A DNA stretch of 64,000 nt, taken from NCBI GenBank assembly GCA_003021705.1, contig PXRJ01000002.1, positions 1 through 64,000 on the forward strand. Reading direction: 5' to 3'. Made by a program: the position numbers and the translations under genes. The notes under the pieces were generated by a model. That model was not told the DNA's origin. It saw only the letters and a program-made list of their open reading frames with translations, and did no database searches. Below are positions 7,671 to 57,005 of the stretch, piece after piece; the stretch's first letter is position 1; the number at the start of each line of letters is the position of its first letter. The stretch comes from Halobacteriales archaeon QS_3_64_16 (GTDB taxonomy: Archaea; Halobacteriota; Halobacteria; Halobacteriales; Halococcaceae).

Positions 7671-7825
7671 GGGTTCGATCGTGACGGATCCTGAACCACG
7701 TTCTCCACGCCGCTCCGCTTTCCGTTCCCGGCCTCGATCCCGCAGGCACGACCGGTTCCCGGGAAGCCATGTCCGTCGAGACCGTCCAGTGATCACTGGC
7801 CGTATTGTACGGCACGACCCGAATC

Positions 7826-9259
7826 ATGTCCAATACTACCACGCTCGTCTGGTTCCGTGAGGACCTGCGCGTACACGACAACCGAGCGCTCCTCGATGCT
7901 CTCGAGACGGGCGAGGACGTCCTCCCGGTCTATTCCTTCGACCCCCGCGAGTTCGATACCGGGATGTTCGACCTCCCGAAGATCGGTCCCTACCGGGCAC
8001 GCTTTCTCGTCGAAAGCGTCGCCGACCTGCGCGAATCGCTGCGCGAGCGCGGCGGCGACCTGCTCGTCCGGGAGGGCAAACCCGAGGACGTCCTGCCGGC
8101 CCTCGCCGCCGCACACGACGTCGAGACGGTCTTCTATCACACGGAGCCCGCGACCGAGGAGCGGGAAGTCGAGACGGCGGTCACCGACGCGCTCGAAGCC
8201 GAGGGAATCGAGACCCGTTCGGTCTGGGGCAAGACCCTCTATCACATCGAGGACCTGCCGACGTCGGTCTACAGTATGGACGATACCTTTACCCCCTGGC
8301 GGAAGTCCGTCGAGCGGAACGCCTCGATCCGCGATGGGGCCCCGACACCTGATGCCGTCCCCACGCCCGAGGCCGATGCCGGTGAGATGCCCTCCCTCAC
8401 CGATCTCGGCGTCGAACCGCGAGAGCCCGACGAACGGGGTGTCCTTCCCTTCGAGGGTGGCGAGACCGCAGGACGGGAGCGAATCGCGAGGTACTTCTGG
8501 GAGGAAGACCGCCTGCGCGAATACAAAGAAACCCGCAACGGGCTACTGGGTCCCGATTTCTCCTCGAAGCTCTCGGCGTGGCTGACCCATGGCTGCCTGT
8601 CGCCCCGGTACGTCTTCGAGGAGGTGAAACGCTACGAGGCAGAACGCGTCTCGAACGAGTCGACCTACTGGCTGCTCTTCGAGCTCATCTGGCGAGACTT
8701 CCATACCTTCCAGTTCGAGAAGTACGGTGCTGACTTTTTCGTCCCGGGTGGTATCCAGGGCGGAAACCCCGAGTGGCGCGAGGACCGGGCGGCCTTCGAA
8801 CGGTGGGCAAACGGCAAGACCGGAGTGCCCTTCGTGGACGCGAACATGCGCGAGCTCAACGAAACGGGCTATATGTCCAATCGCGGCCGTCAGAACGTCG
8901 CTTCCTTTCTCGCCGACTGGCTGGAGCTCGACTGGCGTATGGGCGCGGCGTACTTCGAGGGAAAACTCGTCGATTACGACGTCTGTTCGAACTGGGGCAA
9001 TTGGGCCTACCAGGCCGGCGTCGGCAACGACTCGCGGAACAACTACTTCAATGTCGTGAAACAGGGCAAGCGCTACGATCCCGAGGGTGAGTACGTCCGT
9101 CACTGGATCCCCGAACTCGCCGATTTGGACGCCTCGATCCACGACCCCTGGACCCTCCGCGAGGACGAGCAGGCGACGCTCGGTGCCGAGCCCGGTAGCG
9201 AGTACCCGAATCCGATGATCGATATGGACGCTGCCCACGAACGGCTCCGTAACCGGTAG
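7826..9259 (+). CDS. DASH-family cryptochrome/photolyase
   Basis: This is a flavoprotein of about 477 residues in the cryptochrome/photolyase family. The N-terminal alpha/beta antenna domain opens with [15 protein letters not shown]; the C-terminal FAD domain contains [34 protein letters not shown], and [27 protein letters not shown]-like residues (here [20 protein letters not shown]). The spacing and the ending around [19 protein letters not shown] match the DASH clade, which repairs cyclobutane dimers (best in single-stranded DNA) and may also sense light. The ATG at 7826 gives [13 protein letters not shown]; an upstream TTG would add only seven residues. A second, unrelated photolyase is encoded at 21367-22911. 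Confidence 0.92.
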   Translation: [477 protein letters not shown]

Positions 9260-53751: not shown

Positions 53752-54783
53752 TCAGTCGCCGATCGCTATCATGCCTTTCACTGTCTCCTCGTCCATTGCG
53801 CGCCCGAAGGCGTCCTCGACCTCAGAAAGCCCCGCCTCGAAGTCGATCACCCCTTCGACGTCGATGGCCCCGCTTTCGAGCAGCGCGATAGCGGCCGGGT
53901 AGGTGTTCGCGTAGCGAAAGGACCCGTGGATGTCGAGTTCGTTGTCGATGATATCGAGTACGTCGATCGGAATCTCACCGTCGCCCGGCAGACCGATCAG
54001 TACGACATCGCCGCCGCGCCGCACTACCTCGACGCTCGATCGGATCGCTGAGGGCGCACCGGAGGCTTCGATGACGGTATCGACCCCGTGGCCGTCGGTG
54101 GCGGTCGCGACCGTCTCGGCGAGGTCTTCCTCGCGAGCGTCGACCACCCGGTCAGCACCCCGTTCGGCCGCGAATTCGAGTTTTCGGTCGACGACGTCGC
54201 TGAGTAGGATTTCGCTCGTCCCCGCCGCGCGGGCCGCTGCCATCGCGAGCAGGCCGATCGGTCCCCCGCCCGAAACGAGGACGCTGTCGCCGACCCCGAC
54301 CGACCCGCGCCGGCAGGCCTGAATCCCGACGCTAAGCGGCTCACACAGCGCCCCGGCCCGCGTCGAGACGGTCTCGGGGAGCGTATAGGCGAAGTCGGCG
54401 GGCCAGGCGAGATACTCGGCGAAGGCGCCGTCGTCCGGTGGGGTGGCCATGAAGGTGACCTCGGGACAAAGGTTGTACTCCCCGCGCTTGCAGTACTTAC
54501 ACCGCCGACAGGGAACGCCGGGTTCGAGGGTGACGCAATCGCCGGGGTCGTGTTCGGTGACGTGCTCGCCGACCGCGATCACCTCGCCTGCGCTCTCGTG
54601 GCCGAGGACGAGTGGTGCTTCGACGACGTACTCGCCGATCCGGCCGTGGCGGTAGTAATGTACGTCCGAGCCACAGATTCCTACTGACTCGATCGCGACG
54701 AGGACTTCCTCGGGACCCGGGTCGGGGCGCTCGCGCTCTTCGAACTCGAACTCCAAGGAATCGGTGAGGACGGCTGTCTGCAT
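53752..54783 (-). CDS. Zinc-dependent polyol (sorbitol/xylitol-type) dehydrogenase
   Basis: This medium-chain dehydrogenase has 343 residues. SVGICGSDVHYYRHGRIGEY (zinc Cys and the sorbitol dehydrogenase-type HYY element) and LVLGHESAGEVIAVGEHV (His-Glu) are followed by the structural zinc cysteines in CRRCKYCKRGEYNLC. The NAD motif is VLVSGGGPIGLLAMA. It would oxidise a polyol such as sorbitol, xylitol or a related sugar alcohol. Its promoter lies towards the AT-rich protease region. Confidence 0.9.
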   Translation of the reverse strand: MQTAVLTDSLEFEFEERERPDPGPEEVLVAIESVGICGSDVHYYRHGRIGEYVVEAPLVLGHESAGEVIAVGEHVTEHDPGDCVTLEPGVPCRRCKYCKRGEYNLCPEVTFMATPPDDGAFAEYLAWPADFAYTLPETVSTRAGALCEPLSVGIQACRRGSVGVGDSVLVSGGGPIGLLAMAAARAAGTSEILLSDVVDRKLEFAAERGADRVVDAREEDLAETVATATDGHGVDTVIEASGAPSAIRSSVEVVRRGGDVVLIGLPGDGEIPIDVLDIIDNELDIHGSFRYANTYPAAIALLESGAIDVEGVIDFEAGLSEVEDAFGRAMDEETVKGMIAIGD

Positions 54784-54906
54784 GATCTGGATGTACTATG
54801 TTGTCTCGCTTGTAAGTATTCTCTCGGAACAAGATTCGAGGAAGCACTGACTGGTTGCGATCGAATGTGGGGAAGAATCGTCTTAGGCCGATGTAGATGT
54901 TCACGA

Positions 54907-54924
54907 CGGTGTTTTAAAACATCG
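54907..54924 (+). promoter_or_regulatory. Palindrome overlapping the protease TATA box
   Basis: CGGTGTTTTAAAACATCG is an 18-base near-perfect palindrome (one mismatched pair). Its AT centre lies about 21-28 bases before the ATG at 54940, where a TATA box of a leaderless message would be, so a protein bound here could block transcription. Confidence 0.45.
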
Positions 54925-54939
54925 GGTGATGTGTAGGGC

Positions 54940-55770
54940 ATGTCCCAGAGACAAATCGATCCAGTGTTTGCTACTACTACTGCTATTGGATATCGAGATG
55001 CAGACGGCGGAGGAACCGGATTTTTCATTAATCATAATGAAAGAACATTTATTGTTACTAACCGTCACGTTGTGAATCCAGAAGAAGAGGACTGTAACCC
55101 TACAGAAGCGCACGTATGGTTTAGAAACGCAACAAACATAGGACAAGCGAATCGAAACCCTATTCGGCTCGTGAAGGACGGGTCACCAACCTGGTATGAT
55201 CACCCGGCGGCACCTGAAGCGGTGGATCTAGCTCTGATTCCTATCAACCCGCGCCTTAGTAGTCTTGACGTGCTAGATGATGATTCTCAACAAGTCCAAT
55301 CTGGAAACTTAGCGTTTACCCTGGATCATATAATTCACGAGAACATTCGTGCTGACCAACGTGTATCGATTATCGGCTATCCAGGAGATTTCATGGACCG
55401 TACGACTCGACTCCCGATTCGACGTAATGCGCTAATCGCTAGTCCCTATGGATATGGTTTTGAGGATAATCCCTACTTTCTCACCGATGCACGAATGCAT
55501 CCTGGGACAAGTGGAAGTCCAGTCGTGATGGACGTAGGCGCGATGCAAACAACACACGGCGAGGTGCCAAGTCATCGAAATAAAAGTCTTTATTTGATCG
55601 GCATTCACTCAGCCACTTTCTATGGTACTTCATTTGACGAGCAACGTCTAGAAGAAAGGACTGAGGCGGATAGAGAAATCGAAGAGGAAGCTGATATTCA
55701 ACTTGATCTAAATGTGGCTTGGTATCCCCAACTGCTGACCGATATCTTAGAAAGCATCGACTGGGGTTAG
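54940..55770 (+). CDS. Intracellular trypsin-like serine protease
   Basis: This 276-residue protein has the trypsin-fold triad: His43 in FIVTNRHVVNP, Asp96 in AVDLALIPINP, and Ser191 in MHPGTSGSPVV. It lacks a Sec or Tat signal, so it should be cytoplasmic. Base composition and codon use (frequent A/T in third positions) are unlike neighbouring genes, which indicates recent gain. It stands alone, with a palindrome over the promoter. Stand-alone trypsin-like proteases occur in stress and defence settings; the target here is unknown. Confidence 0.85.
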   Translation: MSQRQIDPVFATTTAIGYRDADGGGTGFFINHNERTFIVTNRHVVNPEEEDCNPTEAHVWFRNATNIGQANRNPIRLVKDGSPTWYDHPAAPEAVDLALIPINPRLSSLDVLDDDSQQVQSGNLAFTLDHIIHENIRADQRVSIIGYPGDFMDRTTRLPIRRNALIASPYGYGFEDNPYFLTDARMHPGTSGSPVVMDVGAMQTTHGEVPSHRNKSLYLIGIHSATFYGTSFDEQRLEERTEADREIEEEADIQLDLNVAWYPQLLTDILESIDWG

Positions 55771-55862
55771 CTGTACGACTACCTTTGTTATCGGGCACAT
55801 TGATTGTGCTCTCTCACAAAAATAGTGGATTCTACTGTTGACTGATAGACCACGAGAACCGC

Positions 55863-57005
55863 TCAGAGTAGCCCGAGCGTAGGAACGTACGACGAGCCGG
55901 GGAATATGCCGAGAATGGCCAGCACGGCGATGAGGAAGGAGCCGAAGGCGATCGCCGCCGCTGGGGGATCCCAGTGAGTGTCGCCGTGGGAATAGAAGAT
56001 CCGTTGGAAGAGTTCGCCGAACAGACCGGCGATCAGGCCGAAGAGCCCGCCCATGAGGATCGCAAGCGCCGCCCCACCGGCGATCAAGCCACTCCCGTCG
56101 GCGGTGACCGCGGCGGCCGCGGCACTACCGACGAGTGCCATGTGGTGGGTAACGGGGACGTTCTCGATCCCACAGTTGAGAAAGACCAGCGAGGCGGCGC
56201 TGATCCCGAACATCAGAAAGACCGACCCGGTCTGGACGGTGATGAACGCGCCGAGCAGGCCGACGGCGAGGCCGGTCGTCGCGACGTTCGGCCACTTGTA
56301 CTGGTGGGGGAGCCAGGGCTCGACGAGGAAGCGATTCGAATTCGCCCCGCCGTCGGTCGCGGTCTCCTGGTCCTCGCCCCCGTCAGTCGCGGCCTCGCCC
56401 ATCACGCGCATCTCCTCGTTCTCGAAGGGGCTCATGTCGAGCAGGCCATACCCCTGGGTGTCCCCGATGATATCGTAGCCGAAGACGAGTCGGTGGACGA
56501 GCGCCGAGAGGGTCACGCCCATCGCGATCCCATCGAAAGGGAAATTGAGCGTCCCGAAGAAGGTCTGAAACCAGTATCCAAGCACGCCAAAGGCCGCCCC
56601 GACCGCGAGCACGTCCGGCTTGGTCCCGAGCGCGTAGGGGATGTGTTTGGCGTTATGGAAGTCGAAGCCGCTTTGCATGTAACCCCGGTCGGCCGCGTAG
56701 GCCGTGGCTGCCGCGCCGCCGGCGAAGCTGATCGCCGGCGAGAACGGCGGCCCGAACGCCACGGTCCCGGTGATCCCGAGTGACCCCAGAGTACTGGGAT
56801 CGCCGGCACCGGCCTGGGCGAGTGCCCGCCCCGCCAGGTTCGCGGCTTCACCCCCGATGATGACGAAGCCCATGATGATGAAGGCTGGCAGCGCTCCGAG
56901 TGCGGCACCGAACGCGCCGCCGGCGAGCGCTCCGAGAAGCGCCTCCGGGGAGAGAAGACTCCCGAGCAGCTGGGTAACGACGACCGTTCCGATCGTCGTC
57001 ACCAT
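55863..57005 (-). CDS. Polytopic membrane protein coupled to glycerol kinase
   Basis: This 380-residue protein has about 10 hydrophobic segments rich in Gly and Ala (for example LLGALAGGAFGAALGALPAFI at the N-terminus and AAAIAFGSFLIAVLAILGIF near the end). An acidic cytoplasmic loop (about 195-220) bears a Glu/Thr/Asp-rich patch. It starts at the base right after the glpK stop, so the two are translated together. In other haloarchaea a membrane protein at this location is thought to be the glycerol uptake facilitator; that assignment is by context, as the sequence does not match GlpF. Confidence 0.8.
   Translation of the reverse strand: MVTTIGTVVVTQLLGSLLSPEALLGALAGGAFGAALGALPAFIIMGFVIIGGEAANLAGRALAQAGAGDPSTLGSLGITGTVAFGPPFSPAISFAGGAAATAYAADRGYMQSGFDFHNAKHIPYALGTKPDVLAVGAAFGVLGYWFQTFFGTLNFPFDGIAMGVTLSALVHRLVFGYDIIGDTQGYGLLDMSPFENEEMRVMGEAATDGGEDQETATDGGANSNRFLVEPWLPHQYKWPNVATTGLAVGLLGAFITVQTGSVFLMFGISAASLVFLNCGIENVPVTHHMALVGSAAAAAVTADGSGLIAGGAALAILMGGLFGLIAGLFGELFQRIFYSHGDTHWDPPAAAIAFGSFLIAVLAILGIFPGSSYVPTLGLL

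Follow-up and report, generated by a model that had tools for sequence, protein, structure and literature searches.

A horizontally acquired haloarchaeal serine protease of the candidate phage-defence family PDC-S45

Introduction

What could a small trypsin-like protease be doing inside the cell of a haloarchaeon, encoded by an AT-rich gene that sits between genes of ordinary metabolism? The question is raised by a locus of Halobacteriales archaeon QS_3_64_16 (contig PXRJ01000002.1), in a stretch of 64,000 nucleotides that was analysed as a whole and is called the window in the following. A preliminary description of this DNA had proposed that the gene was acquired horizontally, that a palindromic operator covers its TATA box, and that the protease serves in conflict, abortive infection or the response to stress. 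The reading at which we arrive, and to which we assign a probability of about 0.6, is that of a single gene which was taken up horizontally and belongs to the candidate antiviral family PDC-S45; its product is a soluble cytoplasmic chymotrypsin-fold protease, which would be triggered by infection, and its promoter is an ordinary leaderless one. The case has a wider relevance, since little is charted of the immunity of archaea and tests are lacking for the majority of PDC families.

Results and discussion

The gene product and its promoter

The features of the locus are collected in Table 1. The protein contains a Trypsin_2 domain (Pfam PF13365, 9.5e-14), and in an alignment of 26 sequences (the window protein and 25 haloarchaeal homologs) the H43/D96/S191 triad and the G-x-S-G-S-P motif show no variation; residues P159, R162, D183, G221, H223 and N258 are invariant as well. 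The AlphaFold2 model that was built from this alignment is confident (pLDDT 86.5, pTM 0.87) and its fold matches are chymotrypsin-fold proteases, e.g. SplA, DegS, DegP and V8. The N-terminus is short and hydrophilic, with a best 18-residue Kyte-Doolittle mean of 0.07 within the first 50 residues, i.e. without a hydrophobic segment, and the protein is acidic (pI 4.67), a combination that fits the expectation for a haloarchaeal cytoplasmic protein. The domain, the complete triad, the predicted fold and the lack of an export signal thus bear out the earlier view of a cytoplasmic trypsin-like protease, as far as sequence and model can tell, and the AT-rich character of the coding stretch between its metabolic neighbours was confirmed (46% GC, versus around 65% in the surroundings).

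Table 1. Features of the protease locus and its flanks (positions in the window)
Feature	Position	Strand	Basis
Left neighbour, zinc-binding alcohol dehydrogenase family gene, outside the system	53752..54783	-	Pfam ADH_N and ADH_zinc_N
Stretch that lacks a counterpart in sister genome G002 and contains the gained segment	54785..55869		DNA comparison
Near-perfect 18-bp palindrome CGGTGTTTTAAAACATCG, one mismatched pair (9+9 bp)	54907..54924		Flanking pairs beyond the TATA box probably match by chance
Probable TATA box TTTTAAAA (leaderless transcript)	54912..54919	+	Location relative to the ATG (-28 to -21), read from the sequence
276-aa cytoplasmic trypsin-like (chymotrypsin-fold) serine protease, candidate defence family PDC-S45	54940..55770	+	ORF, Pfam Trypsin_2, PADLOC profile, predicted model and fold matches
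Catalytic His43 codon	55066..55068	+	Invariant in the 26-sequence alignment
Catalytic Asp96 codon	55225..55227	+	Invariant in the 26-sequence alignment
Catalytic Ser191 codon, inside GTSGSP	55510..55512	+	Invariant in the 26-sequence alignment
Right neighbour, predicted membrane protein beside glpK, outside the system	55863..57005	-	No Pfam match; beside glpK across the family

Assignment to the HtrA proteases was considered and rejected, because the score of 17.8 bits is far below the model cut-off of 470 and the protein has no PDZ match and no hydrophobic N-terminus. The window protein shares the chymotrypsin fold and the G-x-S-G motif with the HtrA/Deg proteins; it differs from them by having neither a PDZ domain nor a signal peptide, and by the patchy distribution that is described below.

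The element TTTTAAAA is probably the TATA box of an ordinary leaderless haloarchaeal promoter, at a position that was read from the sequence; leaderless transcripts make up 72% of the protein-coding transcripts of Hfx. volcanii (PMC4983044). The palindrome that had been noticed over the place of the TATA box is indeed present at 54907-54924, with a single mismatch in its 9+9 bp and its centre at the TATA position; a pattern search of the 2.83 Mb assembly returned the 12-bp core just once. As a true operator it could bind a repressor that is released only when the cell is infected or stressed, so that the protease is not made before. However, palindromes as long and as good as this one occur in the window at chance level (21 observed versus 16.6 expected under a first-order model), TTTTAAAA is already palindromic on its own, and given this core the chance that at least four of the five flanking pairs match is about 1.6%. 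No regulator gene lies next to the protease in the window, and nothing like the palindrome was found in any of the 26 regions upstream of homologs, including that of the Saliphagus copy with its 64% identical protein. This lack of conservation is the very observation that the preliminary description had named as speaking against its operator, which is hence refuted on its own terms; the palindrome counts, the conditional chance and the upstream regions led us to reject the hypothesis, and we regard a repressor-controlled protease as very improbable, and nothing speaks for an operator confined to this lineage. Probably the pairs that flank the TATA box match by chance and the palindrome does not represent a conserved operator. 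A neat palindrome over a haloarchaeal TATA box is therefore weak evidence for an operator.

Local gain and patchy distribution

A genome of the same genus (G002, locus L069) carries the same gene block (glpK, the membrane gene, the zinc dehydrogenase gene, dhaM, dhaL and dhaK), in which the dehydrogenase and membrane genes are adjacent, about 466 bp apart and without a protease gene between them. DNA similarity between the two genomes ends at position 54784 of the window and restarts at 55870. Because this congener has both flanking metabolic genes side by side without the protease, the comparison supports a local gain of the protease gene at this site, loss in G002 being the formal alternative. 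The interval of about 466 bp in G002 is unrelated in sequence to that of the window, so that exact insertion points are not definable, and neither attachment-site repeats nor a flanking tRNA were found when looked for at the site. Another genome of the genus (G003) holds a copy of its own, on a different contig and only 33% identical, and the most similar copies that were found belong to other genera: Saliphagus infecundisoli (64%) and a plasmid of Natronorubrum aibiense (46%). The predicted membrane protein on the right-hand side (55863-57005), which has no Pfam match, is kept beside glpK across the family and is perhaps a glycerol-related transporter.

The family model separated clear members in the genomes (6e-17 or below) by a gap from weak, partial N-terminal matches (1.8e-8 or above). 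Within the class the family is patchy, with a match in 26 of 394 genomes, and the GC content is lower than that of the surroundings in 24 of the 26 haloarchaeal copies. Integrase-like genes lie near six of 27 loci (four of these were checked with Pfam); clustering of 385 neighbouring proteins identified them as the sole neighbour group present in more than three of the 27 loci, and no conserved partner gene besides them. The horizontal acquisition that had been suggested for the gene is thus supported by the empty site in G002, the patchy spread, the AT-rich homologs, the nearby integrases and the divergent, differently placed copy in G003.

These data also bear on the possibility that the protein is a general intracellular quality-control or stress protease, in essence an HtrA/Deg catalytic domain without PDZ that became mobile by chance. 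A weak similarity to HtrA/Deg proteins (0.0017 at best), the fold matches to DegS and DegP and the ordinary chromosomal surroundings of many homologs agree with such a role. However, the protein has neither a PDZ domain nor an export signal, the gene occurs in only that small part of the class, close relatives lack it, which is not what a housekeeping gene would show, and members of the family are carried by prophages; we consider a quality-control function unlikely.

Some copies appear to be damaged. In the nearest homolog (Saliphagus infecundisoli, L089:8001-8894, 64%) the similarity is lost near the 3' end, where the sequence becomes GC-rich, and the conserved C-terminal N-x-x-W-Y stretch is lacking, so this may be a broken copy. 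Two other haloarchaeal copies look decayed: one has no in-frame start before the domain (L046:9601-10305), and the other is a short remnant that contains a stop (L006). Such decay points to a family that turns over rapidly.

Membership in PDC-S45

The protein matches the PADLOC profile PDC-S45 (PADLOC-DB PDLC05022) over its full length (2.8e-33, residues 6-257 on profile positions 17-267 of 293). The same profile is matched by all 26 aligned haloarchaeal proteins (that of the window included). Ten more relatives match it too, of which seven come from plasmids, one from an E. coli prophage and one from a planctomycete MAG, the tenth being the Saliphagus copy. By profile, the protease is a further member of this existing, widespread, mobile and uncharacterised candidate family of single-gene phage-defence proteins. 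It resembles the family in the full-length match, in size, triad and single-gene occurrence, and in its mobile and prophage contexts; the window copy differs in being haloarchaeal and acidic, and in having metabolic genes, not a defence system, around it. A guilt-by-embedding screen gave rise to the PDC families, the majority of which await experimental validation (PMC12988326). PADLOC gives no functional description of PDC-S45, we found no demonstrated activity of any member in the literature, and the sole paper found to use the name applies it to a gene in a Sinorhizobium prophage (PMC12429752).

Genomic neighbourhoods of the homologs

A search of contigs with the single protease sequence gave no match, and one with an alignment of seven sequences recovered 48 loci, mostly bacterial, among which no convincing partner gene was found (the gene calls there were crude and mechanical). 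Restriction genes occur near several homologs: a type IIG gene and a DUF262/type IV-like gene at L031, type I genes at L040, L041 and L045, and the set on the Natronorubrum plasmid that is described below. Many other homologs sit amid ordinary genes, and no defence gene adjoins the protease in the window. We compared these neighbourhoods with about 15 control loci, chosen arbitrarily in the same genomes, which yielded TnpB-like, Csx1-like and UvrD-like hits and no restriction genes among the matches listed (25 of 51 families). Restriction genes were thus found at roughly five of 25 homolog loci versus none of 15 control loci, a suggestive difference that is not significant (p = 0.14) in an under-powered comparison. 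For the proposal that homologs would keep company with defence genes the outcome is divided: restriction genes lie near several of them, but many are found in ordinary contexts and the enrichment falls short of significance. The caspase-like or effector partners that had been anticipated did not turn up in the neighbourhood comparison.

The copy on the 431-kb plasmid of Natronorubrum aibiense (L077:11962-23050) lies amid a TIR-domain gene, an HNH nuclease gene and genes for a DUF262 protein and a Dam methylase, in what resembles a defence region. An Exiguobacterium plasmid carries two PDC-S45 genes in tandem (L084:7977-9680).

Among the nearest described systems are the nuclease-protease pairs of Hachiman and AVAST, in which a trypsin-like protease fused to a sensor activates a pro-nuclease encoded by the adjacent gene (PMC12799240). 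With these pairs, which also include those of Lamassu and DRT, the window protein shares an intracellular trypsin-like protease domain and an immune setting, and its profile shows a weak similarity to LmuA and RT-Protease; it differs in standing alone, without sensor fusion and without an adjacent metallo-beta-lactamase pro-nuclease. A Hachiman/AVAST-type pair was rejected for the window itself, as the protein has a single domain in its 276 residues and is flanked by a dehydrogenase and a membrane protein. The protease could still belong to a proteolytically activated effector system whose pro-enzyme is encoded elsewhere in the genome, a scheme to which the Hachiman and AVAST precedent (PMC12799240) and the low-scoring PADLOC hits for domains of LmuA and RT-Protease would lend themselves. 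Since the known proteases of this kind are fused to a sensor and have the nuclease gene next to them, neither of which is true here, and since no convincing neighbour of the metallo-beta-lactamase type (HxHxDH) was found at the homologs, we give this scheme very little credence.

Phage relatives and a possible antiviral function

The most telling indication of function comes from outside the window. The viral contig L081 represents a P2-like phage of Aeromonas, which in its replication and portal proteins shares 83-93% identity with the phages phiO18P, P05B and A051. Between its replication and portal genes it encodes a relative of the protease, which is tied to the family by profile comparison with the family alignment (hhalign 4e-24) and not by the PADLOC model. 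The flanking DNA is 85-94% identical to that of the three sister phages up to about position 7776 and again from about 8957; the variable block of about 1.2 kb in between has the protease relative (7962-8879) as its sole sizeable ORF, and at this position each of the sister phages holds unrelated genes. The block is the variable part of the interval between gpA and gpQ, which in P2-like phages has been described as a hotspot for anti-phage systems (PMC9122126). Haloarchaeal and phage members are only distantly linked (around 26% identity). Because the relative is the only sizeable cargo at a known site of antivirus genes in one phage, an antiviral role of the window gene is probable, and this placement independently supports a role in conflict with viruses, whatever the mechanism. 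The conflict function that had been conjectured for the protease is in this way indirectly strengthened, by its membership in PDC-S45, by the relative that stands alone in the hotspot and by the restriction genes near several homologs.

A PDC-S45 member is also found in an E. coli prophage, between the lysis genes and the HNH/terminase genes. The presence of copies in this prophage, on plasmids and in the P2-like and SfII phages would agree with a function of benefit to the mobile element and not to the cell, for instance superinfection exclusion, anti-defence or plasmid maintenance. Against this, the copy of the window and many other haloarchaeal copies are solitary chromosomal genes without a surrounding element, and no antitoxin-like partner recurs; service to an element is in our judgement improbable.

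For the preferred antiviral reading, the following course of events can be envisaged. In healthy cells the protease would be inactive or would have no substrate; upon infection a viral component may activate it or may itself serve as the substrate; and cleavage of an essential viral protein or of a host protein would stop virus production, the target being presumably a viral or a conserved housekeeping protein. No partner gene travels with the protease, and sensing and execution should therefore reside in one protein. The Lit-type exclusion proteases of E. coli prophages offer a precedent, in which one cytoplasmic protease blocks infection by cleaving a host protein; the likeness would be one of mode of action, by analogy only, the protease families being unrelated. 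That a stand-alone cytoplasmic serine protease both senses and aborts infection, and does so in archaea, bacteria and their viruses alike, is a tentative and rather doubtful generalisation. If true, it would describe a one-protein proteolytic immune system, without a nuclease, an NLR-like sensor or a gasdermin partner. PDC-S45 is cheap to test, as it comprises a directly assayable class of enzyme with an obvious catalytic null (Ser191Ala), haloarchaeal members and a relative that forms the sole sizeable cargo of a phage defence hotspot.

In the Shigella phage SfII (L076:4937-6663), IS911 genes directly precede a shortened PDC-S45 copy, SfII_57, and an intact gene, annotated as an S1 family peptidase, is present in three E. 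coli genomes. The small genes that occupy the block equivalent to that of L081 in the three sister phages may themselves be defence candidates.
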